Below, piece after piece: positions 1,451 to 60,300 of a stretch of DNA of 64,000 nt; position 1 is the first letter of the stretch, and every line of letters starts with the position of its first letter. Below the pieces are notes generated by a model. The model was not told the origin of the DNA. It did no database searches and saw only the letters and a list, made by a program, of their open reading frames with translations. The stretch comes from Liolophura sinensis (lineage: Eukaryota; Mollusca; Polyplacophora; Chitonida; Chitonidae). Made by a program: the position numbers and the translations under genes. Where the stretch lies: NCBI RefSeq assembly GCF_032854445.1, contig NC_088295.1:3166501-3230500 (forward strand). Direction: 5' to 3'.

Positions 1451-1465
1451 TGATATCTTAATTAA

Positions 1466-4330: not shown

Positions 4331-6335
4331 TTTTTATACATCGACCTGTGTTGTTGTATATATAGACGATACAGACAAAAGTTACTTTAGGTCAGGTGTA
4401 GTTTTCCATCCATTCATCGACCTGTGTTGCTGTATGTATAGAGGATGCAGACAAAAGTTACAGTAAGTCAGGTGTAGTTTTCCATCCATCCATCGACCTG
4501 TGTTGCTGTATGTATAGACGATACAGACAAAAGTTACAGTAAGTCAGGTGTAGTTTTCCATCCATCCATCGACCTGTGTTGCTGTATGTATAGACGATAC
4601 CGACAAAAGTTACAGTAAGTCAGGTGTAGTTTTCCATCCATTCATCGACCTGTGTTGCTGTATATATAGACGATACAGACAAAAGTTACAGTAAGTCAGG
4701 TGTAGTTTTCCATCCATCCATCGACCTGTGTTGCTGTATGTATAGACGATACAGACAAAAGTTACGGTAAGTCAGGTGTAGTTTTCCATCCTTCCATCGA
4801 CCTGTGTTGTTGTATATATAGACGATAGCGACAAAAGTTACTTTAGGTCAAGTGTAGTTTTCCATCCATCCATCGACCTGTGTTGCTGTATGTATAGACG
4901 ATACCGACAAAAGTTACAGTAAGTCAGGTGTAGTTTTCCATCCATTCATCGACCTGTGTTGCTGTATGTATAGACGATACCGAGAAAAGTAACAGTAAGT
5001 CAGGTGTAGTTTTCCATCCATTCATCGACCTGTGTTGCTGTATGTATAGAGGATGCAGACAAAAGTTACAGTAAGTCAGGTGTAGTTTTCCATCCATCCA
5101 TCGACCTGTGTTGCTGTATGTATAGACGATACAGACAAAAGTTACAGTAAGTCAGGTGTAGTTTTCCATCCATCCATCGACCTGTGTTGCTGTATGTATA
5201 GACGATACCGACAAAAGTTACAGTAAGTCAGGTGTAGTTTTCCATCCATTCATCGACCTGTGTTGCTGTATATATAGACGATACAGACAAAAGTTACAGT
5301 AAGTCAGGTGTAGTTTTCCATCCATCCATCGACCTGTGTTGCTGTATGTATAGACGATACAGACAAAAGTTACGGTAAGTCAGGTGTAGTTTTCCATCCT
5401 TCCATCGACCTGTGTTGTTGTATATATAGACGATAGCGACAAAAGTTACTTTAGGTCAAGTGTAGTTTTCCATCCATCCATCGACCTGTGTTGCTGTATG
5501 TATAGACGATACCGACAAAAGTTACAGTAAGTCAGGTGTAGTTTTCCATCCATTCATCGACCTGTGTTGCTGTATATATAGACGATACAGACAAAAGTTA
5601 CAGTAAGTCAGGTGTAGTTTTCCATCCATCCATCGACCTGTGTTGCTGTATGTATAGACGATACAGACAAAAGTTACGGTAAGTCAGGTGTAGTTTTCCA
5701 TCCTTCCATCGACCTGTGTTGTTGTATATATAGACGATAGCGACAAAAGTTACTTTAGGTCAAGTGTAGTTTTCCATCCATCCATCGACCTGTGTTGCTG
5801 TATGTATAGACGATACCGACAAAAGTTACAGTAAATCAGGTGTAGTTTTCCATCCATTCATCGACCTGTGTTGCTGTATATATAGACGATACAGACAAAA
5901 GTTACAGTAAGTCAGGTGTAGTTTTCCATCCATCCATCGACCTGTGTTGTTGTATATATAGACGACAGCGACAAAAGTTACTTTAGGTCAGGTGTAGTTT
6001 TCCATCCATCCATCGACCTGTGTTGTTGTATGTATAGACGATAGCGACAAAAGTTACTTTAGGTCAGGTGTAGTTTTCCATCCATCCATCGACCTGTGTT
6101 GCTGTATATATAGACGATACAGACAAAAGTTACAGTAAGTCAGGTGTAGTTTTCCATCCATTCATCGACCTGTGTTGCTATATGTATAGACGATACCGAG
6201 AAAAGTAACAGTAAGTCAGGTGTAGTTTTCCATCCATTCATCGACCTGTGTTGCTGTATGTATAGACGATACCGACAAAAGTTACAGTAAGCCAGGTGTA
6301 GTTTTCCATCCATCCATCGACCTGTGTTGTTGTAT
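4322..6335. repeat. Tandem array B, 76-bp unit with higher-order structure
   Basis: About 26 copies of a 76-bp unit marked by CGACCTGTGTTGCTGTATG, TAGACGATACAGAC and AAGTTACAGTAAGTCAGG. Variants recur in fixed order (GAGGATGCAG; GATACAG; GATACCG; TATATA plus GATACAG; TACGGTAAG; CCTTCC plus GATAGCG). The GAGGATGCAG variant is near 4440 and again near 5046, about 608 bp or eight units apart, so blocks of units have been duplicated. Most units carry a plus-strand 5'-splice-site-like ACAGTAAGT. The unit is a diverged relative of array A. Confidence 0.95.
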
Positions 6336-6384
6336 AAGTGTACTTATACTTGCGAATGAATACATAACAGGAAACTAAAAACGA

Positions 6385-6540
6385 CAAGAAAAGTGTACAT
6401 TGATGGACGTGGAAGCATGTACTTACCTGTGACGTTCAAAGTTTGACACAATACAACGACAAGAGAAGTGTGCATTGGTGTACGTGCAAGCATGTACTTA
6501 CCTGTGACGTTCAAAGTTTGACCCAATACACCGGTGTTCA
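6385..6540 (-). repeat. Two-copy 75-bp repeat of an exon tail plus 5' splice site
   Basis: The block containing GTCAAACTTTGAACGTCACAG followed by GTAAGTACATGCTT occurs with its donor at 6496-6501 and again 75 bp further along the minus strand (donor at 6421-6426). Only a few substitutions separate the copies. The first copy is the end of the candidate exon at 6502-6555. Confidence 0.8.
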
Positions 6541-6555
6541 ACACCCCAAGCAATG
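6502..6555 (-). CDS. Candidate 54-nt exon of an unidentified minus-strand gene
   Basis: On the minus strand a pyrimidine-rich tract ending TGCGTCTGTTACAG is followed by 54 nt and then a consensus 5' splice site, CACAG|GTAAGTA. The interval is open in two frames (one reads LLGVLNTGVLGQTLNVTG, another WGVEHRCIGSNFERH), so the frame is undetermined. No partner exon was found on either side. The splice signals are strong; the coding status is a guess. The exon tail and donor are duplicated 75 bp downstream. Confidence 0.35.
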
Positions 6556-14600: not shown

Positions 14601-17600
14601 ACAGCTTTTGAAGTCAGTGCAACTTTTTCGAGCTTCCAATGAACAAAAACACTTCCTAACTTCATTATTTAACATACATCCGACATACCTTACCTACACC
14701 TGACAAACTATGCCCTTTTCTGACATAACTTACCTACACCTGACAAACTATGCCCTTTTCTGACATATCTTACCTACACCTGACTTACTATGCCCTTTTC
14801 TGACATAACTTACCTACACCTGACAAACTATGCCCATATCTGACATAACTTACCTACACCTGACAAACTATGCCCTTTTCTGACATAACTTACCTACACC
14901 TGACAAACCATGCCCATATCTGACATACCTTACCTACACCTGACAAACCATGCCCCATATCTTAACTCCACCTGACAAACCATGCTCCATATCTAGCTTA
15001 CAGTTACCTACACCTAACAAACCATGCTCCATATCTGACATACCTTAACTACACCTGACAAACTATGCCCTTTTCTGACATACCTTCCATACACTTGACA
15101 AACTGTGCTCATATCTGACATACCTTACCTATACCTGACAAACCATGCCTATACTTGACATACCTTACCTACACCTGACAAACCATGCCCATATCTGGCA
15201 TACCTTACCTACACCTGACAAACCATGCCCCATATGTTACCTACAATTGACAAACCATGCCCCATATTTGACATACCTTACCTATACCTAACAAACCATG
15301 CTCATATCTGGCATACCTTACCTATACCTGACAAATCATACCCACATCTGACATACCTTACCTACACCTGACAAACCATGCCCCATATTTGACATACCTT
15401 ACCTATACCTAACAAACCATGCCCATATCTGGCATACCTTACCTACACCTGACAAACCATGCCCCATATGTTACCTACAATTGACAAACCATGCCCCATA
15501 TTTGACATACCTTACCTATACCTAACAAACCATGCCCATATCTGGCATACCTTACCTACACCTGACAAACCATGCCCCATATGTTACCTACAATTGACAA
15601 ACCATGCCCCATATTTGACATACCTTACCTATACCTAACAAACCATGCTCATATCTGGCACACCTTACCTATACCTAACAAACCATGCCCATATCTGGCA
15701 TACCTTACCTACACCTGACAAACCATGCCCCATATGTTACCTACAATTGACAAACCATGCCCCATATTTGACATACCTTACCTATACCTAACAAACCATG
15801 CCCATATCTGGCATACCTTACCTACACCTGACAAACCATGCCCCATATGTTACCTACAATTGACAAACCATGCCCCATATTTGACATACCTTACCTATAC
15901 CTAACAAACCATGCTCATATCTGGCATACCTTACCTACACCTGACAAATCATACCCACATCTGACATACCTTACCTACACCTGACAAACCATGCCCCATA
16001 TCTTACCTACAATTGACAAACCATGCCCCATATTTGACATACCTTTCCCACATGTACACCTGACAAACCATGCCTATATCTGACATACCTTACCCACATG
16101 TACACCTGACAAACCATGCCTATATCTGACATACCTTACCCACATGTACACCTGACAAACCATGCCAATATCTTAGATATCTTACCTACACCTGACAAAC
16201 CATGCCCATATCTGACATACATGTACCTTACCTACACCTGACAAATCATGCCCATATCTGACATACATGTACCTTACATATATCTACACCTGACAAACAG
16301 TTGAAGCCTTTAAGGCCTATGTGTACGCCAGACAAATTCTATTGAACACAGTATACCTCTATTTTATGCAATACACATTTCTCTAACCAAGAGTACCTGT
16401 CTTTGTAGACAAATTGTACCTCTATAGTGCCCTCTTACCTGTATCTAACAAAGAGCTGTCCGTTCACTGACAGCACCTCCCGTCTTAGAATGCTCCCGTA
16501 GGATGCCACCAAGTCCTCGAGCACCTGGAGGTCAGCACTAATCGGCAGCCCCTCTAGCTGGATCAGGTGTCCCTCCTTCATACTCCAGTTCATCTCACTT
16601 ATACATGAGTCTGGATATGTACTCCTCAGTCCTTGAACTGGAAGGATAACTCCCCTAGATGCCTCAGAGTTGTAACCAGCCAAATTAGCCACTGCTTCAC
16701 ACATGTCCTGGCCACTGAGGGAAACACCATCAATTGCTTCTGAGAGTTCCCCCTCTGTCATATCACTGAAGTCCTTAATCTCATGAATCGTTGCCTGTGT
16801 CACATCATCTACTTCAGCAGATTCACCCTCTGTCATATCACTGAAGTCCTTAATCTCATGAATCTTTGCCTGTGTCACATCATATACTTCAGCAGATTCA
16901 CCCTCTGTCATATCACTGAAGTCCTTAATCTCATGAATCGTTGCCTGTGTCACATCATCTACTTCAGCAGATTCACCCTCTGTCATATCACTGAAGTCCT
17001 TAATCTCATGAATCTTTGCCTGTGTCACATCATCTACTTCAGCAGATTCACCCTCTGTCATACCACTAAAGTTTTTAATCTCATGAATCTTTGCCTGAGT
17101 CACATCATCTACTTTGGCAGATTCACCCTCTGTCATATCACTGAAGTCCTTAATCTCATGAATCTTTGCCTGTGTCACATCATATACTTCGGCAGATTCA
17201 CCCTCTGTCATACCACTAAAGTCTTTAATCTCATGAATCTTTGCCTGAGTCACATCATCTACTTCGGCAGATTCACCCTCTGTCATACCATTAAAGTTTT
17301 TAATCTCATGAATCTTTCCTTTACTCATACCAACAGAGGTCAAAGGTTCACTGTGAGTGAGGTTATCTATACTCTCTGACTGTAGGTTTCTGGAGTTGCT
17401 GGAGAAATGTTTGTTGCTTCTATCAGCCACAGGTGTGACTGGTACAGGTAAGACCTCGGTATTTCCATGTGTTAAAACCTCCTCCTGATTGGTGCAGTGT
17501 GCTGTTGAAGTTTTTGGTATCTCCTTGTAGACATCCTTGATGTAACAGTTAGCATCTTCTAATGATTGTGTTTGCCCACTGGATCCATCACTTTTCAAAT

Positions 17601-20600
17601 ATTCACTGCATCCTTCACTTATTATATGTTCTCTGAATCCTTCAGTTGGTAAATGGTCACTGGATCCATCATGTTTAATTTGTTCGGCAGATGCTTCCCT
17701 TTTCAAAGATTTATTTAATCCTTCAGCCATTGTATACTGATTGCATCTTTCACTTCTCACATGTCCACTGGATCCTTCATTTCTCACATGTCCACTGGAT
17801 CCTTCACTTCTCACATGTCCACTGGATCCTTCACTTCTCACATGTCCACTGGATCCTTCACTTCTCACATGTCCACTGGATCTTTCACTTCTCACATGTC
17901 CACTGGATCTTTCACTTCTCACATGTCCACTGGATCCTTCACTTCTCACATGTCCACTGGATCCTTCACTTCTCACATGTCCACTGGATCTTTCACTTCC
18001 AGTATATTCATCTGATTTTTCACTCTTCACTTGATTTCTTGATTCTTCTCTTTCTACTTGTTCAACAGATTCTTCACTTCTCAATTGTTCACTGGATCCT
18101 TCACGTTTCACTTGTTCAATGGATTCTTCACACCTGCCATCATCAAGGGATTCTTCACTTCTCACATGTTCAATAGGTTCTTTATTTCTCACAAGCTTAC
18201 TGGATTCTTCATTTCTCACATGTTTACAAGGTTGATATCTAACATGTTCACTGTTTCCTTCACTTCCTACTTGTTCACTAGATCCTTCATTTCTCAAAGG
18301 CTCACTAGGTTCACATCTAACTTGTTCACTGGATCCTTCATTTCTGATCTGTTTGCTTGATCTTTCACTTTTCATATGTTCAAATTTATTTCTCAAATGT
18401 TCATTGGATCCTTCACTTTTCAAACATTCAAAGGGTCCTGCACTTCTCACACGTTTAATGGATCCTTTTTTTCTTACATGTCTGATGGTTCTGATCTTGG
18501 TCAGAAGTTTAAAGATTGGCTCATTTCTTTCATATCCTCTGGGTCTTTTAATACTCTTGAGTTTGTCAGATCTGTTCAGTTTAATGGAGCCTCCACATTT
18601 TACAGGTACACCGGATGCTTCCCTGATCCTACATTCCTTGGATCCTTCAGGCCTCACATCAGAATGTTCAGTTAATAATCTGGCCTTAGACAACTGACTG
18701 CATTTATTTGTCAATGGAAGGGATACTGACTGGCTAAAATGTGATGGGCACTGTTCACCAATCTGCACGGAATCCAGCCTGTCTGGAGGCCAAGTATTAC
18801 TGAATGTCTCGCCAATGCCACGGGAGGTAACCACTTCCTGTTCAGAACAGAGCTGAGTAAGACCTGAGTTATCTTCTATGAACGCCTCCTGACCAACCAG
18901 AGATAGCAAATCACAGTCAGCTCTGGCGGTCTCTGAGCTATTTTGTCTTTTCTGTGTTCTCTCCCTGTTGGACTGTGACGCATTGAGATGGAACTGAACT
19001 GTCCTGATGGCACTGTCTGAGAACAGACTGGTTTTCTCTATGTGAGTCACATCACTCACATCCCTCAGTGATGATATGCCAAACTCTGTGTTAAACTCTG
19101 GTAAAGTCTCAAAGCTGTTCACCGGTATGATGTCACCACAGTCTGAGGCACACATGCTGTCACTGTCCGACACGTACACAAAGCTGCTGGTGTCATCTGT
19201 ATCACCTGCCCTCGCCAGTGGTACTTGACTCAAGTCCAGCAGAGCCTGAGAGTGGTCACCCCCTGCACAGCAGTGAGGCGTGGGAGAGCTCTGTGAGCCC
19301 CGGACACTGTGTGCAGCATGTGAACTCAGAGTCCTCTTTATGTCACCACTGTTACTGGTCACGGAAGACTCCACTCTGTCATCACTCTCACTGGCATAAT
19401 CTAGGCCAGAGTTTTCTGATGTGAGCTGATCCTCAGAATCACACACACCTGGGTCAGTGTTCCTCGCCCTCTCTCTAGAACTTGGACGGCGTTTCTGTTG
19501 GCCAGGACGCCTCGGCTTACTAACTAGGGAAGCTGGTGTAGGAGAAAACTTTGCTCTTTTGTCTTGTCTGGAGCTTACTAAGGCAGGAAATTCAGTGAGG
19601 CTGTGGATGGCAACACAGGGTGCTGAGGCTGTACGTAGCATTCTATCACCGTTTCCAGATTCTACTTTAAAACCCTCTGTGGACACGGTCTGACTAGAGG
19701 ATGACAGTCGCTTCTCCTTCATCAGGTGTGCCTTTGGTGTGGCAGAGGCTGAACAAAAAAGAACAAAATGTCTTTGCGAAAAAATGTTACAAATGTGGAT
19801 AGAACAGATGTTTAATGAATACATTTGCACCAGAATTTGGTCTTTTCAGCTAACAAATGGGTCAACCTGGATTTTGATAATATTAATATTTTTAATACAT
19901 TCATAAATATTATCAAAATAAGTACAAAAGTGCAAAAAAGTGGTAAATATGGTATTCAATATTTGTGCCAATTGTTCTTTAAAGAGAAAAAGAACATGAA
20001 AATATTTTTTTGTATGGTGGGTATCTGGGACCATCTCTTGGTATATACTGTCTTTGTGAAATAATGTTTTAATTGTGGATAAAAACAGATGTTTAATAAA
20101 TATAGTTGCACCTGATTTTGTTTTTTTTCTGCTAATAAATGTGTTCAACCTGGATTTTGATCATATTTTTCATATATTTTAAATATATTCATAAATATTA
20201 TCATACTTCAGAGTAAATGCATTTGCTTGTGTTTAAATAACAAATTTACATTCAAATACATTTATTGGTCATGCACCACATCCTTATTTCAAACACTATT
20301 ATGCAAAGAGTATATATACCAAATATCTTCAAATACCCTTTTCTTCTGAAAGAAAAATCTAAAAAAAAAAGCATTAAATTTGCAAGTAAGTTTTCACGAT
20401 CTTTCATCTCATTTTGATATCATTTCTATGTTTTCTTTTCTTTAGAGCAAAGAAAACAGGACAGTTGGCCAAGGGTCAGTATAAAGTGACTGGGTGGGGG
20501 TGACATGTCTGGTGTCTTTGGCATGATACTCCAGTGGCAGCAGTGCTTTGGTGTCATGGTCTCGCCCCTGCCACAAGAAGACACAGCATATGTAGACATA

Positions 20601-34539: not shown

Positions 34540-37500
34540 CTGCCAAAAAAAAACCATTCTCAGTGTAATCTGATTCCAATTTCATGTGACGCTAACTTCA
34601 AAGTCTGTCTCACATACAACATGAAAACTCCAATCTCATGTGACGCTAACTTCAAAGTCTGTCTCACATACAACATGAAAACCCTGCCAAACCAATTCAA
34701 TAACAATAAATACCCCCCCCCCCCACCCTCCCACATACAGAGTCAGTTACCGCAGCCAATATGTGAAAATGAGTTTCATTTTTTAGAAAATCGGGCTTGC
34801 ATTAATATTGACCAGATAACCCAAATTTTGACATTACATCTCTATATTCATATTATTAAGAGGCACATCAGTCCGTTTGGGACTTACATGCTTTAATACG
34901 CTTGGAGACACACCGTTGGAGTCCCCTCAGGGACATCCCCATAGTCGCAGAGGAATATCACATTGGGACTGCCAGATTGGGCTGGAGTGACTTACCTTTG
35001 CATCCACTCGGGGCTACCAGGTTGGGCTGGAGTGATGTCCTCCTGTATCCACTCGGGACTACCAGATTGGGACTGTAGTGACTTACCTCTGTATTCACCC
35101 GGGGCTACCAGATTGGGACTGTAGTGATTTACCTCTGTATCCACTCGGGGCTACCAGATTGGGACTGTAGTGACTTACCTCTGTATTCACCCGGGACTAC
35201 CAGATTGGGACTGTAGTGATTTACCTCTGTATCCACCCGGGGCTACCAGATTGGGACTGTAGTGATTTACCTCTGTATCCACCCGGGGCTACCAGATTGG
35301 GACTGTAGTGATTTACCTCTGTATCCACCCGGGGCTACCAGATTGGGACTGTAGTGACTTACCTCTGTATTCACCCGGGGCTACCAGATTGGGACTGTAG
35401 TGACTTACCTCTGTATTCACTCGGGACTACCAGATTGGGACTGTAGTGACTTACCTTTGCATCCACTCGGGGCTACCAGGTTGGGCTGGAGTGATGTCCT
35501 CCTGTATCCACTCGGGGCTACCAGATTGGGACTGTAGTGACTTACCTCTGTATTCACCCGGGGCTACCAGATTGGGACTGTAGTGATTTACCTCTGTATC
35601 CACTCGGGGCTACCAGATTGGGACTGTAGTGACTTACCTCTGTATTCACCCGGGGCTACCAGATTGGGACTGTAGTGATTTACCTCTGTATCCACTCGGG
35701 GCTACCAGATTGGGACTGTAGTGACTTACCTCTGTATTCACCCGGGGCTACCAGATTGGGACTGTAGTGATTTACCTCTGTATCCACTCGGGACTACCAG
35801 ATTGGGACTGTAGTGACTTACCTCTGTATTCACCCGGGGCTACCAGATTGGGACTGTAGTGATTTACCTCTGTATTCACCCGGGGCTACCAGATTGGGAC
35901 TGTAGTGATTTACCTCTGTATTCACCCGGGGCTACCAGGTTGGGCTGGAGTGATGTCCTCCTGTATCCACTCGGGACTACCAGATTGGGACTGTAGTGAC
36001 TTACCTCTGTATTCACCCGGGGCTACCAGATTGGGACTGTAGTGATTTACCTCTGTATCCACTCGGGGCTACCAGATTGGGACTGTAGTGACTTACCTCT
36101 GTATTCACCCGGGGCTACCAGATTGGGACTGTAGTGATTTACCTCTGTATCCACTCGGGGCTACCAGATTGGGACTGTAGTGATTTACCTCTGTATCCAC
36201 TCGGGGCTACCAGATTGGGACTGTAGTGACTTACCTCTGTATTCACCCGGGGCTACCAGATTGGGACTGTAGTGATTTACCTCTGTATCCACTCGGGACT
36301 ACCAGATTGGGACTGTAGTGACTTACCTCTGTATTCACCCGGGGCTACCAGATTGGGACTGTAGTGATTTACCTCTGTATCCACTCGGGGCTACCAGATT
36401 GGGACTGTAGTGACTTACCTCTGTATTCACCCGGGGCTACCAGATTGGGACTGTAGTGATTTACCTCTGTATCCACTCGGGACTACCAGATTGGGACTGT
36501 AGTGACTTACCTCTGTATTCACCCGGGGCTACCAGATTGGGACTGTAGTGACTTACCTCTGTATCCACTCGGGGCTACCAGATTGGGACTGTAGTGACTT
36601 ACCTCTGTATTCACCCGGGGCTACCAGATTGGGACTGTAGTGATTTACCTCTGTATCCACTCGGGGCTACCAGATTGGGACTGTAGTGATTTACCTCTGT
36701 ATCCACTCGGGACTACCAGATTGGGACTGTAGTGACTTACCTCTGTATTCACCCGGGGCTACTAGGTTGAGACTATAATGGCTAACCTCTCTATCCGCCC
36801 AGGACTGACAGACTGGGACTGTAGTCTTACCTCTGTATCCACCCAGTACACACACATACCAGGAGTGCCAGTTTGCCACAAGTGACTTACCTCTGTATCC
36901 ACCCGGGGCTGCCAGATTGGGACTGTAGTTGAGTGATGAAAAGAAGGTCTCATCTGGGACATAAGTTCCATTTAGCCAAAGGAGGAAATCTTGGGCCCGT
37001 TGGTCATTAGTGAGGAACTCCACAAATCCGCGAACTGCCGCTATGTGGACAGAGCCTTTTGTTAGGGTTATGCCGTGAGGGGCTGGCTCTCGGGACAAGG
37101 TACGATGGATATTCCTCCTGTAGAACAGAGCACATCAGCTTAGTACTAGGGTAACCACTTACTACGCAAGAGAAACCTCTCTGGCTCAGGTGGCTATGGC
37201 GGTGGCTTGCTGTGACAACCGGGTTCCTAAATTTTCGTGTTCGAATCTCGCTGCTTTGACTGACTAGCTTGTCATGAACCTGGCGAAGGTTAGTGATTTG
37301 TTCGAGTCACCACGGTTTCCTGTACCCATAAACCTGAACGTTGTCATATATTTGAAGTGAAAAATTATCGTCACTTGAGTCTCTAAAGGTTTAATTAGTT
37401 CACTGATACTAATAATATGGATTATCTTACCGCTTTAGGGAGCCTTGAATATCGTTTGCACCTTCAAACCTTTTGAGGATTTTTACAAGCTGCAGGTTTG

Positions 37501-44726: not shown

Positions 44727-47700
44727 CTGAAAATTAACAAAATGAAAACAAATGGAAAAGCTAATGTAACAATACAAAGCTAATGTAACAGATGTCATTT
44801 TAGACAGCAGCCTAAGTCAGGAAACAGTGTAGTAACACCTGCTATAGATAGTTAACTAATACTTCAGTGGAAATTTAGGCACGATCTTCCCTGCCATTGA
44901 CTTTCGCATGCCTGCTAAAGCCGTTTTATTGTACGTTCATAGAATGGAGAAAAAAGTTAAATTACAAAAATATTGGTAGTAAGGACGACAGAAAGTCTGT
45001 TATAGAATCGGTCTGCACCAACCTTCATGGAGACCAGACCTCGATCCGTGACGTCATATCCGCCCAATTGATCCAGCAGATCTTTACATTGCTCTGAACA
45101 GTGGATCTTCAAAGCTGAAAGTATCCATAAGTCACCATGAATATTTATTCACCACTGATGAGTACCAGTGTGTCTGACAACACAGGATGTCAGGAGGATT
45201 TAGTATATGAGATATCATAATGTATTCCTGGACGATGTTGGTTAACTATTTATACTAGTGTGCTGTTAGTTCGACAACATCACTTGGCCTCAACCACTGT
45301 AATAAAGTTCTAACTAAACTCTGCAAAGTAGTTTTATTGCTATTGCAACATATTATTTTCTATGCTATCCTGTTAATCAAATTGCACTTGCGGTATTGGT
45401 CATTACTTTTAGATTTATGTAATGCTGTGGTTAAAATAAAAACTAAACCTAGTTTTGCAAGCCTTCCTTCTTAGTCACGGGATCAAGAGAAAACGTGAAA
45501 CACCAGCATTATCTTTGACATGATAGGTTAACCAATTTATGGACAAGTTTCAGTGGATGTATGTCTCTCTTACGTAATCCATTGGATTCCATCCTTGACG
45601 ACGTATTAACGGTGTCGCCAAACAGGCAGTATCGGGGCATCTTCAGGCCGACGACGCCTGCGACACAGGGCCCGGAATGGATTCCGATCCGGAGCTTAAG
45701 GACGTCATCAGGGCGATGACGGATCTTAAACTTTTTAATGGCCTCGAGTAAATGTAAGGACATGGAAGTTATCTCCCCTGCGTGCTTGATGCCGTTGGGT
45801 TTGGGTAGGCCGCTGACCACCATGTAGGCATCCCCGATTGTTTCCACTTTGTACACGTCATAGTTTTCAATGATGGAGTCGAACAAAGTGTAGAGGTCAT
45901 TTAACAGGCTAACCACCTGTGGAGAAGAACGGATTTGTGTTACTCATCTGCTGACTGTTCTCTCCGTTGTGTGATTATATAGATCACGAAGCGAGAATAA
46001 TCAAATTGGCTAACTTTATCTGCAGCTCAGGTACAACACAACTCTCTTCTGAAAGAAGTTGAAGTTTATTAACCACGAATACATGTAAACTTGGGCGTTT
46101 TAATCCGCCATACCCACCCCCAGCCCTCCTTGTCAGCACTGCTTAATACAGCATCGGGTTCCTACCTGCATGGGTGAACTCTCCGACGACATGGCTGTGA
46201 ACCCACATATATCGCTAAAGTAGATCGTCACTGAGTCGAACGCTTCCGCCTCGACCTGTTTACCTCTTTTCAACTGCTCCGCCACAGATCTGAAACCGAC
46301 ATCAAAAAATTAGCATGAGCTGATGCACATCACTTTTTAAGTGTTTCATAATATTCCATTTGACTAATGGCAAAAATCCTACACAACGCAACTTACGTTA
46401 CGTGAAATAGACGTTATCTGCAGGAGAAATCGGGATGGCGCTCATAGTCTTTGACAGTTATACCAGATATTGTCAGGAAGACGCTGATAACCTTTGACAG
46501 TCACATAGTCAGTCACTCGTGTGCAGGCAGTTGTGGCTTTAATGGGAAAATACCTTGTAGTGTACATCGTAAGATCGGTAACACGGCTGATTGTTACGCT
46601 TGTGGAAGTGTTTCAGTGAGAGTTTCCAGTCCACAAAGTATTTTTACCTAGGCAACATTTGATGTAGAAGGTCCTCGATTTTCCTTTTCTCCTCAATCAG
46701 CAGCTCTGTTCTCTCCTCCACGAGCTCTTCAAGGTTGCTCGCGTACTTCTCCATTATCGTCATCATGTTGTCAAAAATGTTTGGTTTCCTGAAAAACGAC
46801 CAGGCCGTACTTAAACCATGCATAAAACTTACCGAAATTCCACCCGGAAAAGTACATCTATGTGTAAAATACAACAAAAGCCAGTTATAACTAATTGCAG
46901 AAAGAATTCTCTTACTTCATAACCTAATAGTTATTGCTTCTGTCTAGATAGGGCATCGAGAGCTCTTAGTCACATGATTAATCTCTATACAGCCGCTGTT
47001 GAGATGCAAATGAGCGCTTGTGACATGCTATAATCTCTTTACTATGATTGATGAAATGTGTAAGATTATCTGTACTGTGTCTAGATGAAATGTGTAAGAT
47101 TATCTGTACTGTGTGTAGATGAAATGTGTAAGATTCTTTGTATTGTGACTGGATGAGGTGTGTAAGAATCTCTGTGCTGTGTCTGGATCAGCTGTGTAAG
47201 GTTATCTGTATTGTGTCTAGATGAAATGTGTAAGATTCTCTGTGGTGTGTCTAGATCAGCTGTGCAAGATTATCTGTACTGTGTCTAGATGAAATGTGTA
47301 AGATTCTTTGTATTGTGACTGGATGAGGTGTGTAACAATCTCTGTTTTGTGTCCGAATGAGATGTGTAAGGTTATCTGTACTGTGAGTGGATGAAATGTG
47401 TAAGATTCTTTGTGCTGTGTCTGGATCAGCTGTGTAAGATTATCTGTACTGTGTGTAGATGAAATGTGTAAGATTCTTTGTATTGTGACTGGATGAGGTG
47501 TGTAACAATCTCTGTGCTGTGTCTGGACCAGCTGTGTAAGATTATCTGTACTGTGTGTAGATGAAATGTGTAAGATTCTTTGTATTGTGACTGGATGAGG
47601 TGTGTAACAATCTCTGTTTGATGTCCGGATGAGATGTGTAAGGTTATCTGTACTGTGACTGGATGAAATGTGTAAGATTCTTTGTGCTGTGTCTGGATCA

Positions 47701-48278
47701 GCTGTGTAAGATTATCTGTACTGTGTGTAGATGAAATGTGTAAGATTCTTTGTATTGTGACTGGATGAGGTGTGTAAGAGTCTTTGTGCTGTGTCTGGAT
47801 CAGCTGTGTAAGATTATCTGTACTGTGTCTAGATGAAATGTGTAAGATTCTCTGTGCTGTGTCTGGATGAGGTGTGTAAGAATCTCTGTGTTGTGTCTGG
47901 ATCAGCTGTGTAAGATTATCTGTACTGTGTCTAGATGAAATGTGTAAGATTCTCTGTGCTGTGTCTGGATGAGATGTGTAAGAATCTCTGTGCTGTGTCT
48001 GGATCAGCTGTGTAAGATTATCTGTACTGTGTGTAGATGAACTGTGTAAGATTCTTTGTATTGTGACTGGATGAGGTGTGTAAGATTCTGTGTATTGTGA
48101 CTGGATGAGGTGTGTAAGGTTATCTGTACTGTGACTGGATGAGATGTGTAAGATATGTACAGTCACGGGATTGGATGTGTTAGATTTTTTGTAGTTTGAC
48201 TGGATATGATGTAACATTTCATGTCGTCTACAGGAGATTAGTCTAAGTAGGGGCCAAATGACGATCGCATGAAAGTTG

Positions 48279-48359
<81 letters not shown>

Positions 48360-51300
48360 GCGACTTGTACCTGTTCACTTACATTCCTTTCTGCATGGGT
48401 TTCAGTTTGTTGCGAATGGTTTTGAAGTCTGGCCTACAGTCGGGGTTTTCCGCCCAACACTCCTTGATGCAGTCCGTGATGAACTTTGGGGTGGTGTCTA
48501 GGGCGGCAAGCCGGGGCCTGAACGGGCTATCGACGGGGTCCACGTTAACAACACGCTCTATGATCTCTGGCGGTCAAACATGACGTACATGTACATAAAA
48601 AGCTGTGTTAAAAATTAAAATCCATCTGCTTGTGATACATTTTATCCTTACAGCTTTACATCTGCATGTATAAATGATTTTTATAAAATTTAAATGATAT
48701 TTAAATGATATAACAGATATTTATTGGTTGGTTGTTGTTTGGAGTATTGGCGTCTTCCAGTCCCTCGAGAAAACATTTATTTGACTTAGATTTGGTTGAT
48801 AAACGGGTATATCTGTAAACCTATTTGACTCAGAATACTCTTGAGTACGGCGTAAAACACCAACCAAATAAATATTTGACAGATTTGGTTGCTAGACGGG
48901 TATATCCGTAGACCTTCTGTGTATTTCCCATTAAGGTTGCAGATATACTTGTCCAGCTGTTATAAAGCAAATTTTATGTGAGAATACCTTTAGGGGAGAG
49001 ATCTAGATCTCCGTAGGGACCCCTTCGACCCTGAACTTCAAACATTATGATGGCAAAGGAGTAGACGTCCCCTTTCTGGGTACCATAAGGTAGAGGAGAT
49101 GGGTCTCGCAGTAACTCAGGGGCTGTCCACAGTTTATCTGAAATCAGAACACACACGTGTATTCATGTTCTCATTTTTGCTCTGTTCTCCATTTCCGGCG
49201 GGTTGTAAATCATATTGGGACTTGGGGAGAACCTGTGAAAGGTCAAAATGTTTTCTTTGACAACAGACGACACGTTAATGACTTGCCATCGATCAGGCCC
49301 TTTCCGACAATCAAATATGGGTCTTATCTCCGACAAATTGGGGAATACCATGTTTTCAACTCACTTCTTTCCGTGGCATATTCTCCCTTGTCGTGGACGA
49401 CTCCAGAGCAAAATTCGTGCAGACCAAAGTCTGTGATTTTCACCACCCAGCGACTGTCAACCACGCAGTTTGAGGACTTAAGATTTCCATGTGTCTTAAT
49501 GATACTCTCATGGATATATATCATACCCTGTGAACATAATGAAGCAGAAGTAGGTACAATTTATATTACTGTGAAAACGGTGTTCGCCTGTAAGAATACA
49601 TCTTAAGTGGGTGAAAACAAGGGAAATTATTATCTAATTGCAAAGCTTTATGTTCTTTCTATTTCTTTACAGCAGCCAGTCGACATTACACCCCTGACTT
49701 TCAACTGACGATGTTAACTTGGTAGCAATTCACATACCCTTAAAATGTCAAATACCAGAGAGGCGATGAACATCGAGTCCAGTTTAATCTCCTCGTTTTC
49801 TAGGACATCCTGTCAACAGTCAAGTGAAAAATATGGCAAAATGCCCAAAACTGCAGCTTCGTCGCTCTTGTTGATTAAGTAAAAACAATGCTCAAAAAGC
49901 GAAGAAAAATCGAACATTTTCAAATTCTTAACTACACATGCAACACGTACTTGCAAGCTACCCTTTGAGCAGTATTCAGTGACGATGAAGATGTTTGGAG
50001 ACTCTATACACGCTCCAATGAAGGCGTTGACGTTATCATGACGTATATCGCGAATCTGCAAAGATGAAGACAAAGAAATCTGAGAGATGAGTTTACGTGA
50101 CTAAAAATTACTTCAGTTGATGTGTAAAAGGTAATGAGGGAGACAAATGTAACTCTACGAGACTTGTAATCTGACACAGGACGACAAGTCATCTCTGTCC
50201 ACAGAATCTCATTGGGCTTCAAAGCAGGATATTTTATGGTCCAAACAATACAAGTAGTCTTAGAATAAATCCAAGTGTCATAGTTACACTGCTTGGCTTC
50301 TCCTAAGTTCAAAGTTTCAACGTGCATTGCATAGGCATGCATGACGTTGTCTGTGGCTGTGCATTTCCATACGTGATTGTTTCTTCTCATTTGCGGTCAC
50401 TTTTCCGTCTTTTGGTTAGTAATACCTTTGCAAAACGCATGGCTGCAGCCCCCCAACAACACATCGATTGAGTTCCTTGGCAAAAGCAAGTTAAACGCCT
50501 TAAAAACAGGGGTATTTTTACGGAATGTGAATATCATAGTGCACAGGATTGTACATGTTATCTTGATAGCTTACCCCAGATGGCGTCAAAGAACAGACAT
50601 TAAGTGCCGACAATTCGTAAAACCATAACATACTTTTTACGGGATTTGTTTAATCGCAAAGCCATTGCAGGTGTGATATGAGGGGACAATCTTTAAGACA
50701 CAGCAACTCACATATGTCAAATACCGGATTTGGAGGCAGGGAATAATTACATTTTTGAGTTCTTTCCTGACGTTTCTTGTGAGGTCGACGTGACGCTTGT
50801 TGATTTTCTTGATGGCTACAATGCTGCCCTTGTACGTCCCCACTTCAGTGAAGGTTTGCCTGAGATCTATATCCACCTGGGAACCCAGGGACATTTGGCT
50901 ACCCCTCATAGTCACGCTCATCTGTGAACATAATAAAACGTACGTTAGGTTGTCAAAGAGAGGCTTCCGCACCCTGTCAGGTTATGAGACCCGGTTCTGC
51001 CAGCAGTGCCCAAGGGCTCAGTCTATCCGTCTAACTTTTCAAATTTGGATTACCACAGGAATAACAGCTGCGTACGATCACTCATGTCCTGGATAAGTAT
51101 GTCCGATCAGGGGAGACGTAGCAGACTCAAACAGCCCATTGCGGGCTATAAGGATAAAGACGATATGATAATGACGCCAGTAATAGGTATGTGTCCTGCG
51201 GGCCGCGAACAGAGTCTGGAGGACAAATATTGTCAAGAGAAATCATATGATGATCCTACCCAATCCATTCTGCCAAAAGACGTCGTGAGTCCAGCCGTCG

Positions 51301-54300
51301 TCTGGCAACCATGTGAGTCTTGGAACACAATGTCCTTCACATCTATCTTCCACAACAGACTGGCTAGATCCTGCTCATACTTCCAGTTTCTGAAGCATAA
51401 AGGGTGTCATTTCGATGATTATTCATCTAGGTCTTACTGTCCTTCGTTAAAGTGCTATACTTTTATTACTTAATGTCATCAGTGCAATACCCAGCATTCA
51501 ACAATTATCAGCCCGGTAAACAACTAATACAACACGTCACTGTCCAATTCGTCTAATTTTTGAAACATCTCCTATTTTTAGCCAATATACATTTAATTGC
51601 AACCGGAATATACAGTTTCATCTTTCGTACAGGGTTAGCCCATCCAATGAATAACACAAGCAAGTCGTTACTTTTTTGAGGAATGAGAGAGATATGTTTT
51701 TTTTGGTGCTTTCAGCACTTCTGATTTCTGTTCTAAGAATTAGAACAATTAGAAGAGATGACATAACGAAGGACCGCGATATGCCTGCATTAAGTATTGC
51801 CCAAGTCAGCCTAAATCATGATCATGTTTAGGTAATAATGAACATGCGGTATGATTTGCCTAATACAGTGCATCTCATAGCTCTTTATTAGTCGTAAGTT
51901 GTTTATATGTGTCGTTAAGTCATAGTATGGTACTAACCTGTAAGCTATTGTCATGACAATAATGATGATAACCAGGATGCTCCCGATACAACCTCCCACG
52001 ATTTCACGGACATAGGCTGTAATGTAAACAAATCATGAGTAAATACATCCGATACAACCTCCCACGATTTCACGGACATAGGCTGTAATGTAAACACATC
52101 ATGAGTAAATACATCCGATACAACCTCCCACGATTTCACGAACATAGGCTGTAATGTAAACATATCATGAGTAAATACATCCGAAACAACCACCCACGAT
52201 TTCACGAACATAGGCTGTAATGTAAACACCATCATGAGTAGATTCCTCTGATACAACCACCCACGATTTCACGGACATAGGCTATAATGTAAACACATCA
52301 TGAGTAAATACATCCGATACAACCTCCCACGATTTCACGGACATAGGCTGTAATGTAAACACATCATGAGTAAATACATCCGATACAACCTCCCACGATT
52401 TCACGAACATAGGCTGTAATGTAAACACCATCATGAGTAGATTCCTCTGATACAACCACCCACGATTTCACGGACATAGGCTATAATGTAAACACATCAT
52501 GAGTAAATACATCCGATACAACCACCCACGATTTCACGGACATAGGCTGTAATGTAAACAAATCATGAGTAAATACATCCGATACAACCTCCCACGATTT
52601 CACGGACATAGGCTATAATGTAAACACATCATGAGTAAATACATCCGATACAACCTCCCACGATTTCACGGACATAGGCTGTAATGTAAACAAATCATGA
52701 GTAAATACATCCGATACAACCTCCCACGATTTCACGGACATAGGCTGTAATGTAAACACATCATGAGTAAATACATCCGATACAACCACCCACGATTTCA
52801 CGGACATAGGCTGTAATGTAAACAAATCATGAGTAAATACATCCGATACAACCTCCCACGATTTCACGAACATAGGCTGTAATACATATCATAAGTAAAT
52901 ACATCCGATACAACCACCCACGATTTCACGGACATAGGCTGTAATGTAAACATATCATGAGTAAATACATCCGATACAACCACCCACGATTTCACGGACA
53001 TAGGCTGTAATGTAAACAAATCATGAGTAAATACATCCGATACAACCTCCCACGATTTCACGAACATAGGCTGTAATGTAAACATATCATAAGTAAATAC
53101 ATCCGATATAACCACCCACGATTTCACGGACATAGGCTGTAATGTAAACGTATCATGAGTAAATACATCCGATACAACCACCCACGATTTCACGGACATA
53201 AGTTGTAATGTAAACAGCGCCATGTATAACAAGTCCCCGATACAACCTCGAATTCCCGGATATAGGCTGTAATGTAAACACTATCACAAGTAACAGATCC
53301 CCAATATAACCTCCCACGATTTCACGGACATAGGCTGTAATGTAAACACATCATGAGTAAATACATCCGATACAACCTCCCACGATTTCACGGACATAGG
53401 CTGTAATGTAAACACATCATGAGTAAATACATCCGATACAACCTCCCACGATTTCACGAACATAGGCTGTAATGTAAACACATCATGAGTAAATATATCC
53501 GATACAACCTCCCACGATTTCACGGACATAGGTTGTAATGTAAACATCATCACAAGTAACAATCCCCCCTATACATTCTCCCACTATTTCACGGACATAA
53601 GTTGTAATGTAAACAGCGCCATGTATAACAAGTCCCCGATACAACCTCGAATTCCCGGATATAGGCTGTAATGTAAACACTATCACAAGTAACAGATCCC
53701 CAATATAACCTCTCACGATTTCTCGGACATATGTCGTAATACGAACACCATCATGTGTAACAAATCTGCGATACAATCTCTCGTGATTTCACGGACATAA
53801 GCTGTAATGTAAACGCCATCACAAGTAACAAATTTCAACGATTTCACGGACCTGGAAGGAGGTTGTAATGTACAAAACACCACAGATATTTTTTTAAAAA
53901 CTCCAAGAACCCCCCCCCCCCCCTCCCCCACGACTTCATGAAAAGAAGTTCTAATGAAGAAAATACCATGAGTAACATCTCAAAATTTTAGAAGAAAGAC
54001 TCTATCAAAGAGACCAAATAACTTGTGTAATTTATAATCAAAGCGCAAACCTACAAGAAGAAACTTCCCAGAAACCAGTCCTGTTTATTAGATAATGTCT
54101 AACACCGTGATATCTTCACAAACATCTTCACAAACACTCACATCACCAGGATGTGTTCACAAACACTCACTACACTAAGATGTTTTCACAAGACCTCTTC
54201 CCAAAACCTCACCACACCGTGGTCTCTTCCCCAACCGTCATAACAACGTGATTTCTTCTTAAACACTCAGAGCACTGTGATTTCTTCATAAACACTCACA

Positions 54301-57300
54301 ACACCGTGATTTCTCCCAAACACTCACAACACCGTGGTCTCTTCACAAACACTCACAACACCGTGGTCTCTTCCCAAACACTCACAACACCATGATGTCT
54401 TCACAAACACTCATAACACCGTGGTCTCCTTCCAAACACTCGCAACACCGCGGTCTCCTCCCACACACTCATAACACCATGATGTCTTCCCAAACACTCA
54501 CAACGCCGTGGTCTCTTCCCAAACACTCACCACTCCGTGGTCTCTTCTCGAACACTCACAACACCGTGGTCTCTTCCCAAAACACTCACAACACCGTGGT
54601 CTCTTCCTAAACACTCACAATACCATGATGTCTTCCGAAGCGCTCATAACACCATGATGTCTTCACAAACCTCACCGTGATGTTTTCACAAATACTTGCA
54701 ACACCGTGGTCTCTTCCCACACACTCATAACACCATGGTCTCATCCTAAACACTCACAATACCATGATGTCTTCCCAAACACTCACAACACCGTGGTCTC
54801 TTCTTAAACATTCACAATACCATGATGTCTTCCGAAGCGCTCATAACACCACGATGTCTTCACAAACACTCACAACACCGTGGTCTCTTCCCAAACACCC
54901 ATAACATCGCGGTCTCTTCCCACACACTCATAACACCGTGATTTCTTCATAAACATTGACCATAATGCCTTAATGAACAGCGTACATCAAAGAAAACCAT
55001 ATATAATGTTTCAAAAAACTGACACAACCCATTTAGTTCATACTAAACAAGTTTAGCCACAATTTACAAAGAACTGAACTAGTATCGAGTGATTTGTCCA
55101 CTGCACTCAAGTGGCAGAATGTTCAATATCAGAGCAGATCTAGGAGAATGATCAGTAATCAATACTGATAATACACTAGGTTTCCTGTGACGTAGGACGT
55201 AAACGGTTCTCACCGTAAGCTTTCTATTGTTCTCACACGTGATTAATTACTGTTGGTGACCAGCTAAAAGGCCGGATATCACAGAATCTTGTCTGCGAAT
55301 ATTGTTGACAGCCCATCCGTGATAAAAGCTTTATTATTAGATCTGTGGTCAATCAGCTGTGTAAATAGTGTCCAGTTGATTTGTAAACTGTACAAATTGC
55401 TCCATTGTGACAGTAGGACATTTATTACACCACCTGGTTCACGGAGAGGTGAAAACCTTAATGAAAACCATGTAAATTTGAACTCGGACAAATGACTGAG
55501 CTGTACCTCATATCATGATTAAGCGGTGATCAAATAAACTCAGATGGAAATTCGTCTAACCAATGGTTACATGTTTCTATATTGGTGGAGCATGTAGAAT
55601 GGTAACTCACTTTTGATCTGTATGCATTTCTCTCCCAGGAATCCACACACGGGTTCATCCAGCGGTGGGGAACCGCCCACCCACGTGATTGGATATTTCA
55701 ATGACAATTCCTACAAGACAAGAATAGTTTGCATGCTAAGAAATAGCTACACGGTGTATATATGTAAGCTATTAGGGCATTATGATCAACATATCATGCG
55801 ATATCTGTCTGTGTTCTGTCTTATATCATGATCAGCACATCATGCGATATCTGTCTGTGTTCTGTCTTATATCAAGATCAGCATATCATGCGATATCTGT
55901 CTGTGTTCTGTCTTATATCAAGATCAGCATATCATGCGATATCTGTCTGTGTTCTGTCTTATATCAAGATCGGCACATCATGCGAGTTCTGTCCGCGTTT
56001 TGTGTTGTATCAAGATCGGAACATCATGTAATATCTGTCTGTGTTTTGTGTTGTATCAAAATCAACACATCATGCCACATCTGTCTGTGTTATGTTATAT
56101 CATGATTAGCACATCATGTGATGTCTGTCTGTGTTCTGTCTTATATCATGATCAGCACATCAAGCGATATCTGTCTGTGTTCCGTATTATATTACAATCA
56201 ATACACCATGCAAAGACACTCTTTGTGCTGTGTTATATCATGATTACACCAAGCCATGTCTTTCTCTGTGTTGTGTTATATCATGGTCACACCAAGAGAT
56301 GTGTTGTGTTATGATTACACCAAGCGATGTCTGTCTCTCGGCTGTGTTATATCATGGTCACACCAAGCCATGTCTGTCTCTGTATTGTGTTATATCATGG
56401 TCACACCAAGCCATGTCTGTCTCTGGGCTGTGTTATATCATGGTCACATCAAGCGATGTCTGTCTCGGCGTTTTGTTATATCATGATCACACCAAGCGAT
56501 GTCTGTCTCTGTGTTGTGTTATATCATGGTCACACCAAGCGATGTCTGTCTCTGTGTTGCGTCATGATCAGACCAAGCGATGTCCGTCTCTGGGCTGTGT
56601 TATATCATGGTCACACCAAGCCATGTCTGTCTCTGCGTTTTGTTACATCATGATCACACCGAGCGATGTCCGTCTCTGGGCTGTGTTATATCATGGTCAC
56701 ACCAAGCCATGTCTTTTTCTGTGTTGTGTTATATCATGGTCACACCAAGAGATGTGTTGTGTTATGATTAGACCAAGCGATGTCTGTCTCTGTATTGTGT
56801 TATATCATGGTCACACCAAGCCATGTCTGTCTCTGTATTGAGTTATATCATGGTCACACCAAGCCATGTCTGTCTCTGGGCTGTGTTAAATCATGGTCAC
56901 ATCAAGCGATGTCTGCCTCTGCGTTTTGTTATATCATGATCACACCAAGCGATGTCTGGCTCTGTGTTGTGGCTGTCTCTGTGTTATATCATGGTCACAC
57001 CAAGCGATGTCTGTCTCTCGGCTGTGTTATATCATGATCACATCAAGCAATGTCTGTCTCTTCGTTTTGTTATATCGTGATCACACCAAGCGATGTCTGT
57101 CTCTGTGTCGTGTTATATCATTGTCACACCAAGCCATATCTGCCTCTGTGTTGTGTTATATCATGGTCACACCAAGCGATGTCCGTCTCTGGGCTGTGTT
57201 ATATCATGGTCACACCAAGCGATGTCCGTCTCTGTGTTGAGTTATATCATGGTCACACCATGCGATGTCTGCCTCTGCGTTTTGTTATATCATGATCACA

Positions 57301-60300
57301 CCAAGCGATGTCTGTCTCTGTGTTGTGGCTGTCTCTGTGTTATATCATGATCACATCAAGCCATGTCTGTCTCTGTGTTGTGTTATATTATGGTCCCACC
57401 AAGCGATTTCCGTCTCTGGGCTGTGTTATATCATGGTCACACCAAGCGATGTCTGTCTCTGTGTTGAGTTATATCATGGTCACGCCATGCGATGTCTGCC
57501 TCTGCGTTTTGTTATATCATGGTCACACCAAGCGATGTCTGTCTCTGTGTTGTGGCTGTCTCTGTGTTATATCATGGTCACACCAAGCGATGTCTGTCTC
57601 TCGGCTGTGTTACATCATGATCACATCAAGCAGTGTCTGTCCCTTCGTTTTGTTATATCGTGATCACACCAAGCGATGTCTGTCTCTGTGTTGTGTTATA
57701 TCATGGTCACACCAAGCAGTGTCTGTCCGTTCGTTTTGTTATATCGTGATCTCACCAAGCGATGTCTGTCTCTGTGTTGTGTTATATCAATGTCACACCA
57801 AGCCACATCTGTCTCTGGGCTGTGTTATATCATGGTCACACCAAGCCATGTCTGTCTCTGTGTAGAGTTATATATGATAACACCAAGCGATGTCTGTCTC
57901 TGCATTTTGTTATATCATGATCACACCAATCGATGTCTGTCTCTGGGCTGTGTTAAATCATGGTCACATCAAGCGATGTCTGCCTCTGCGTTTTGTTATA
58001 TCATGATCACACCAAGCGATGTCTGGCTCTGTGTTGTGGCTGTCTCTGTGTTATATCATGGTCACACCAAGCGATGTCTGTCTCTCGGCTGTGTTATATC
58101 ATGATCACATCAGGCAATGTCTGTCTCTTCGTTTTGTTATATCGTGATCACACCAAGCGATGTCTGTCTCTGTGTCGTGTTATATCATTGTCACACCAAG
58201 CCATATCTGCCTCTGTGTTGTGTTATATCATGGTCACACCAAGCGATGTCCGTCTCTGGGCTGTGTTATATCATGGTCACACCAAGCCATGTCTGTGTCT
58301 GTGTAGAGTTATATATGATCACACCAAGCGATGTCTGTCTCTGCGTTTTGTTATATCATGATCACACCAATCGATGTCCGTCTCTGTGTTGAGTTATATC
58401 ATGGTCACACCATGCGATGTCTGCCTCTGCGTTTTGTTATATCATGATCACACCAAGCGATGTCTGTCTCTGTGTTGTGGCTGTCTCTGTGTTATATCAT
58501 GATCACATCAAGCCATGTCTGTCTCTGTGTTGTGTTATATTATGGTCACACCAAGCGATTTCCGTCTCTGGGCTGTGTTATATCATGGTCACACCAAGCG
58601 ATGTCTGTCTCTGTGTTGAGTTATATCATGGTCACGCCATGCGATGTCTGCCTCTGCGTTTTGTTATATCATGGTCACACCAAGCGATGTCTGTCTCTGT
58701 GTTGTGGCTGTCTCTGTGTTATATCATGGTCACACCAAGCGATGTCTGTCTCTCGGCTGTGTTACATCATGATCACATCAAGCAGTGTCTGTCCCTTCGT
58801 TTTGTTATATCGTGATCACACCAAGCGATGTCTGTCTCTGTGTTGTGTTATATCATGGTCACACCAAGCAGTGTCTGTCCGTTCGTTTTGTTATATCGTG
58901 ATCTCACCAAGCGATGTCTGTCTCTGTGTTGTGTTATATCATTGTCACACCAAGCCATATCTGTCTCTGGGCTGTGTTATATCATGGTCACACCAAGCCA
59001 TGTCTGTCTCTGTGTAGAGTTATATATGATAACACCAAGCGATGTCTGTCTCTCTATTGTGTTATATCATGATCACACCAATCGATGTCCGTCTCTGGGC
59101 TGTGTTATATCATGGTCACACCAAGCGATGTCTGTCTCTGTGTTGAGTTATATCATGGTCACACCATGCGATGTCTGCCTCTGCGTTTTGTTATATCATG
59201 GTCACACCAAGCGATGTCTGTCTCTGTGTTGTGGCTGTCTCTGTGTTATATCATGATCACATCAAGCGATGTCTGTCTCTGTGTTGTGTTATATTATGGT
59301 CCCACCAAGCGATTTCCGTCTCTGGGCTGTGTTATATCATGGTCACACCAAGCGATGTCTGTCTCTGTGTTGTGTTATATCATGGTCATACCAAGCGGTG
59401 TCTGTCTCTGGGCTGTGCTATATCATGATCACACCATGCCATGTCTGTTTGTGCGCTGTGTTATATCATGATCACACCAAGCCATGCCTGTCTCTGTGCT
59501 GTGTTATATCATGATCACACCAAGCCATGTCCGTCTCTGGGCTGTGCTATATCATGATCACACCATGAGATGTCTGTTTGTGCGCTGTGTTATATCATGG
59601 TCACACCAAGCCATGTCCGTCTCTGTGCTGTGTTATATCATGATCACACCAAGCCATGTCCGTCTCTGGGCTGTGTTATATCATGATCACACCAAGCCAT
59701 GTCCGTCTCTGGGCTGTGTTATTGTACGGCACACCCCAGTAACCAGAGCATGGGCGGTTCTACTGACTAATATTTATTCGTTTGATTGAAGACTTACGCA
59801 GAACTCAAGAATATTTCAGTGGAAAGCATTATGGTGGAAGGAAAACGGACAGAGCCCAGGGGAGGCTGGTGATTGCTAGCTGACCTTCCCACGTACAACT
59901 GGAGAGGAAGCCAGCATGGTCTGAACATAAACTCACAATGACCCCACTGGTGAGAAGCCCATGGGTCATTGTGCTACGCTAGTTCGCCATAAACCACTAA
60001 ATCACGGAGGACCCCTCTAATGAAGCAAACTGTAGACCCCAATAATCAAGACACGAGTGGTCCTGATGGCCATTGTGAGATGACGCACCATTCCCCTGAC
60101 CCAGGCTGCAGAAGCCAGTAATCAGGACACCAGTGGTCCCTGTGACCGTTCTGCGGTGACGTACGACACCAGCGAGACAGACGGCAGACCCCAGTAATCA
60201 AGGCACTAACAGTTCCAGACATGTTGTTTCTCCTTGAGGAGACTAAGACTATATGCGTTTGTATATCTTACCGGTAAATCCGACAAGTTGTGACTCAGTT

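Follow-up and report, generated by a model that had tools for sequence, protein, structure and literature searches.

A probable mirage minisatellite with 28 decoy acceptors at the transmembrane exon of a putative receptor-type guanylate cyclase gene in the chiton Liolophura sinensis

The locus described here raises the question of how an intron can carry a long row of copies of its own 3' splice site, where such a row comes from and which of the copies serves as the acceptor. The row lies on the minus strand of a 64-kb stretch of L. sinensis DNA, the whole of which is referred to as the window. The exons of the gene and the array are the following:

55611-55710, minus strand: upstream exon in the joined open frame, end of the extracellular part, with the donor AAA/GTGAGT
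51983-53870, minus strand: tandem array containing 28 decoy junction copies and the real one
52017-52047, minus strand: region of the real 3' splice site, tgtatttactcatgatttgtttacattacag, which is the intron part of the last unit
51938-52016, minus strand: real transmembrane exon of the putative receptor-type guanylate cyclase, 79 nt, consistent in frame with its neighbours and sharing its first part with the array
51260-51389, minus strand: juxtamembrane exon, in the joined open frame
50751-50921, minus strand: first kinase-homology exon, in the joined open frame and with a kinase-like Pfam match

When the exons 55710-55611, 52016-51938, 51389-51260 and 50921-50751 are joined, they give one open frame of 160 amino acids, and the other two frames contain many stops. 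Its product runs from the end of the extracellular part through a membrane helix and a juxtamembrane stretch into the kinase-homology domain, whose start it includes. Pfam matches on the same strand were obtained for a kinase-like domain (E 3.6e-17) and for Guanylate_cyc (E 6.2e-51). No ligand-binding domain was found in the region 55.7-64 kb, and the label 'receptor' thus depends on the membrane helix and on the domain order. Frame continuity on both sides argues that the 79-nt exon is a true exon.

Tandem repeats finder (TRF) describes the array at 51983-53814 with a period of 66, 27.7 copies and 88% matches. Reading unit by unit on the minus strand, 29 junction copies were counted from 53856 to 52016, i.e. 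28 decoys and the real one, in agreement with the claim of about 28 copies of a 3' splice site together with the start of a transmembrane exon. The count is based on 32 matches, from which two half-unit chance matches and one match outside the array were dropped. The copies are spaced by 55-69 nt, mostly 66 nt. In a typical unit, about 31 nt of intron end, closing in TTTACATTACAG, are followed by an exon start of about 35 nt that opens with CCTATGTCCGTGAAATCG. The repeat takes in the first 34 nt of the 79-nt exon; on re-alignment these 34 nt were identical in the real copy and the neighbouring decoy, and the predicted repetition of the intron end with this exon prefix was thereby recovered. 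The AG is retained in 24 of the 29 copies (23 of 28 decoys), and four of the 28 decoys match the real acceptor at every position from -20 to +3, i.e. over 23 nt.

The most degenerate copies are those farthest from the exon, above 53.5 kb, and four of these six have lost the AG. The farthest decoy, at 53856, is hardly recognisable, with mismatches at 11 of 35 and 24 of 31 positions. At the end next to the exon, the real copy resembles the core of the array as closely as its neighbours do, and no exclusion from turnover was seen there. Exact repeats of 144, 143, 132, 131 and 127 bp occur several units apart, at offsets of 199 to 1318 nt, which indicates copying or conversion of blocks at least two units long. 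The array occupies about 1.9 of the 3.6 kb of the intron. A DNA search of the genome with the array sequence, in which common words were skipped, returned only its own locus. Other arrays in the cyclase gene (47050-48185, 54112-54955 and 55784-59722) were not counted, as they end at least about 70 nt from visible exon edges.

The donor of the real transmembrane exon, CAG/GTTAGT, agrees with the donor consensus at 8 of 9 positions, whereas the 206 GTs of the array all score 7 of 9 or less. Only the last copy, as had been claimed, runs into the full 79-nt exon and a strong donor. With no strong donor in the array, the decoy units cannot easily form exons of their own. Joining of 55611 to each AG-bearing decoy results in an in-frame stop ahead of the real donor in all 23 cases, and neither AATAAA nor ATTAAA occurs within the array. 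The original prediction, that reading on from any decoy gives one particular peptide, a stop and a truncated receptor, thus holds for the stop; the peptide itself, preceded by T, is formed exactly in 14 of the 23 cases, the other products being different and at most 60 amino acids long.

Exon definition had been suggested as the probable selector of the last copy. The lack of a strong donor in the array speaks for this, but pairing with the real donor is also open to the three nearest decoys and would give exons of 145, 211 and 277 nt. Exons of 145-277 nt are ordinary in size, so an extra selector would have to act besides exon definition, which was rejected as the full explanation. Exon definition appears only partly adequate, accounting for the harmlessness of far decoys and not for the pick among several near ones. 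The extra selector could be a preference for the exon-proximal site, enhancers in the exon body or decay of misspliced RNA.

We consider it highly probable that the array is a homogenised mirage minisatellite, in which the copy proximal to the exon is used and the remaining copies are silent decoys. A tandem duplication would have spanned the 3' intron/exon junction, including about 31 nt of the intron end and 34 nt of the exon start, and it would have been amplified by unequal exchange or slippage and then homogenised in blocks. Every such duplication would keep one intact junction at the exon side, and the copies upstream would turn intronic. As the intact junction remains at the exon side, the exon-proximal copy would stay a working acceptor and the duplication could spread without damage, provided that this copy is used. 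The spliceosome would take the exon-proximal copy, probably because it is the sole one joined directly to the full exon body, and the 28 decoys would normally leave with the intron. From the sequence we infer the use of the last acceptor in the mRNA, the reason for that choice and the mechanism of amplification. Two features by which mirages are recognised were found in the array: its repeats span the exon-intron boundary (34 nt of exon and about 31 nt of intron per unit), and many but not all units keep the AG (23 of 28 decoys). Turnover is seen as exact blocks of up to 144 bp and the far boundary is degenerate, but the copy at the exon showed no exclusion.

A second array in the window repeats a junction on the donor side:

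34965-36924, minus strand: donor-side array (TRF 34965-36844, 41.0 copies), the 46-bp unit consisting of the end of a Core-2/I-branching (GCNT-like) exon and a GTAAGT donor
37117-36891 as read, minus strand: real exon of this array, Branch domain

The Branch domain was matched with E 1.4e-6 for this exon and with E 2.4e-23 for the stretch upstream of it. The minus strand at 6380-6545 carries a 75-bp unit with ACAG/GTAAGT twice, beside a possible short exon with an upstream acceptor, and this may be a young two-copy mirage. Two large arrays lie on the plus strand at 1465-6335, one with 33.7 copies of a 79-bp unit and the other with 26.3 copies of a 76-bp unit; the units of the 76-bp array contain a donor-like ACAGTAAGT, and no exon was recognised. 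At 16438-19845, on the minus strand, repeat arrays with units of 75 and 27 bp overlap an open frame of 1136 codons; similar repeats are found about 6 kb off, at about 22.5-26 kb, and a run of N near 22.0-22.2 kb separates the two sets.

Donor patterns were used for a search of the whole genome. Three occurrences of CAGGTGAGT at array-like spacing were found 752 times, compared to 36 times for the backward pattern. When separate arrays were told apart by eye, at least 16 were counted over the initial 49.8 Mb of contig 1, compared to 14 for the control in all 609 Mb. The corresponding result for three CAGGTAAGT was less clear than for CAGGTGAGT, with 314 matches and 167 for the backward pattern. 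One array matched by the control pattern, at 92961139-92961585 of contig 1, repeats an apparent exon end, presumably that of a homeodomain exon, followed by GTGAGT. Among the matches listed, 30 donor-bearing arrays were told apart by eye and 28 of them were fetched, the two left out being an array on contig 3 and a short-period array on contig 1. In seven of the 28, a database-supported exon was flush with the first donor, and in eight an exon was possible without firm support:

L015: RNA polymerase III RPC1 exon, flush (E 2.8e-8)
L016 and L023: between them an exon of glycosyl hydrolase family 31 (1.5e-12) and one of an MH2 domain, a SMAD (3e-11), both flush
L032: exon of a helicase-like protein, which we take to be MOT1/BTAF1, flush (2.6e-18)
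L037: exon of an iron-hydrogenase-like protein, flush (1.8e-12 and 6.5e-7)
L038: 2-oxoglutarate dehydrogenase exon, flush (1.5e-20; Pfam only 0.017)
L041: ABCC transporter exon, flush (5.7e-16; no Pfam match)
L013: possible exon, best E 0.055
L017 and L018: possible exons without database support, presumably DERA-like and ARFGEF-like, respectively
L022, L033, L039, L044 and L046: possible exons without a database match

At the other 13 fetched arrays no exon was found (L011, L012, L014, L019, L020, L021, L034, L035, L036, L040, L042, L043 and L045); in L011 the array fills the fetched stretch and the upstream flank lies outside the view. The exon part of the unit was 5-35 nt at 14 junctions traced by script, 12 of them outside the focal window. 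The script sometimes locked on a multiple of the unit length, and its periods are therefore not unit lengths and its decoy counts are partial in such cases.

The frequency of such arrays was also approached from the exons. Of 135 protein-kinase matches listed, 56 were at most 345 bp long, and 40 of these were chosen by hand with the sequence unseen and fetched with flanks of about 350 bp. As the choice leaned to short open frames and passed over some exons close to others already chosen, the sampling was not strictly random. An array crossed the exon edge in five of the 40 short kinase exons (95% interval 4-27%), at two acceptors and three donors:

L072: array across a kinase acceptor, 37 bp
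L074: array across a kinase acceptor, 80 bp
L085: array across a kinase donor, 67 bp
L094: array across a kinase donor, 65 bp
L108: array across a kinase donor, 76 bp

No edge-crossing array was seen at the 25 best-scoring kinase loci, giving 5 of 65 over both sets; these long-exon loci consist mostly of one long exon and are thus a poor test for mirages. Globins are the family with lancelet cases, and none of the six globin loci fetched, out of 25 globin matches, had a mirage. At a paralogous cyclase locus no clear mirage was present at the juxtamembrane donor, and its transmembrane exon was not found. Arrays with a period of at least 8 were present in 10 of the 40 short-kinase loci, and by hand the inner end was placed 5-34 nt inside the exon in five of the 10. 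If the ends were distributed evenly between -350 and +40, P would be about 0.002, which is a hint and not a test, as the interval was picked after viewing the data.

The mirage reading is supported by the anatomy of the array, the AG in 23 of 28 decoys, the block-wise turnover, the lack of a strong donor and of AATAAA or ATTAAA, the donor-side array of like architecture in the window, the recurrence at other genes and the features shared with lancelet mirages. Counting against it are the four decoys equal to the real site over 23 nt, for which some use would be expected from site strength alone, the possible exons of 145-277 nt, the paralogous cyclase locus, and the long-exon kinase and globin loci (0 of 25 and 0 of 6). 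Some of these observations fit another explanation, that an ordinary intronic minisatellite has strayed over the exon edge and that junctions have no special tendency to amplify. We take this possibility seriously, although on the whole we doubt it. The genome is rich in arrays, with 60 TRF rows in the window and arrays at 10 of the 40 kinase loci, each locus being about 900 bp long; 13 of the 28 sampled donor-bearing arrays had no recognisable exon, the CAGGTAAGT triple was only about twice as frequent as its backward control, and the long-exon kinase and globin loci lacked mirages. Straying does not, however, readily account for the large excess of the CAGGTGAGT triple over its control, both in matches and in arrays told apart by eye, nor for the inner ends in the short-exon survey, half of which lie 5-34 nt inside the exon and none deeper, with the reservation on the post hoc interval given above.

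It is also conceivable that the decoys are used under regulation, the joins from 55611 giving a secreted ligand-binding form or a decay-bound RNA and thereby tuning the amount of receptor. The stop within 60 codons, before the real donor, in every AG-bearing decoy would suit such a device, as would the four decoys that match the real site and the ability of the nearest three to share the real donor. We nevertheless find regulated use improbable: the array has no polyadenylation signal of either form searched for, which would probably leave a short form dependent on the downstream exons and subject to decay; arrays of this kind are also found at donors and in genes unrelated to this one, and this speaks against a device specific to the receptor; and mirages of lancelets are reported without disturbance of the mRNA in passages of PMC3087553 and PMC3902484. 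Birth of the intron by tandem duplication of exon sequence (the AG/GT duplication model), with the array as its relic, has been put forward for lancelet globins in the part of PMC3087553 considered. It was rejected here as very unlikely, because the intron part of the unit is unlike the end of the upstream exon when compared by eye, and the share of the intron filled by the array also speaks against it. Long repeats are in general open to mis-assembly, but an assembly artefact is hardly credible and was likewise rejected, since the HiFi reads, with a mean of 8,347 bp according to the section of PMC11068029 used, exceed the 1.9-kb array, the units differ among themselves and similar structures occur on several scaffolds.

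If the mirage reading is right, the window holds, within 64 kb, a natural test of splice-site choice, with an acceptor multiplied 28-fold and a donor about 40-fold. Site choice among near-identical splice sites has been studied with artificially duplicated sites. Further cases are offered by conserved genes, those of RNA polymerase III RPC1, 2-oxoglutarate dehydrogenase, a SMAD and an ABCC transporter. We tentatively propose, with somewhat less than even confidence, that splice junctions are favoured starts of tandem amplification in this chiton, that thousands of its exon edges carry rows of decoys, as extrapolated from a small survey, and that the rule by which the exon-proximal site is picked outweighs both site strength and exon size. 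The rows of decoys may also set the level of correctly spliced RNA. For annotators, splice-site scores alone are misleading in mirage-bearing genomes.

The host is a chiton, and its mitochondrial genes on one strand follow the order cox3-nad3-nad2-cox1-cox2-atp8-atp6 in Pfam matches; the opposite strand has the 16S rRNA and, by eye from the frames, nad5, nad4, nad4L, cob, nad6 and nad1. We take this order to be chiton-like, as in chitons and some other molluscs, and unlike that of lancelets. On contig 99, seven COX1 matches follow each other at steps of about 15.5 kb, and the contig appears to consist of mitochondrial genomes joined head to tail, perhaps a product of assembly. The genome was published as that of Liolophura japonica (PMC11068029, in the part considered), and a later correction assigned it to L. 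sinensis (PMC12441733).

Mirages have been described in lancelets (amphioxus) for Adh3, the original work on which is cited here through PMC3087553, and for the globins BflGb6 and BflGb9 (PMC3087553), with further cases in troponin C and PGBD5 (PMC3902484). According to the passages of PMC3087553 considered, an exon may be affected on both its sides, the AG or GT is kept in many units though not in all, and the units are from tens to about 160 bp long and homogenised within the array; concerted turnover with exclusion of the boundary units and allelic or somatic instability in length belong to the description, and RT-PCR suggested that regular splicing is undisturbed. The architecture in the chiton is the same as in these passages, but the host is a mollusc and not a cephalochordate, and the 28 decoys compare with 6 and 3 units in two BflGb6 haplotypes (PMC3087553). 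The exon-first survey gives a rate for the chiton (5 of 40 short kinase exons), whereas the lancelet passages give none. No paper on mirages outside lancelets, and no report of them in molluscs, was found in the literature searched, which in view of its incomplete coverage is weak evidence of novelty. What is new here is apparently the lineage and the commonness of mirages, the kind itself being known from lancelets; the present cases extend mirages to a mollusc and provide a first rough rate of occurrence.

Other systems resemble the array in part. NAGNAG and other tandem acceptors compete at a distance of a few nucleotides and are often both used; the chiton array likewise has competing nearby acceptors, but in 28 copies about 66 nt apart. 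In the polyubiquitin gene UBC, splice sites are also arranged in a tandem array, as tandem dual-specific sites (PMC10809524, in the passages considered). These sites bound coding monomers and are spliced stochastically, whereas the chiton copies are intronic except for the last and are acceptors without a strong donor. Intron gain by tandem duplication, the Rogers model as presented in passages of PMC3087553, similarly involves a duplication around a splice site. In that model a new intron is formed from exon DNA, whereas in the chiton an existing junction would have been copied into its own intron.
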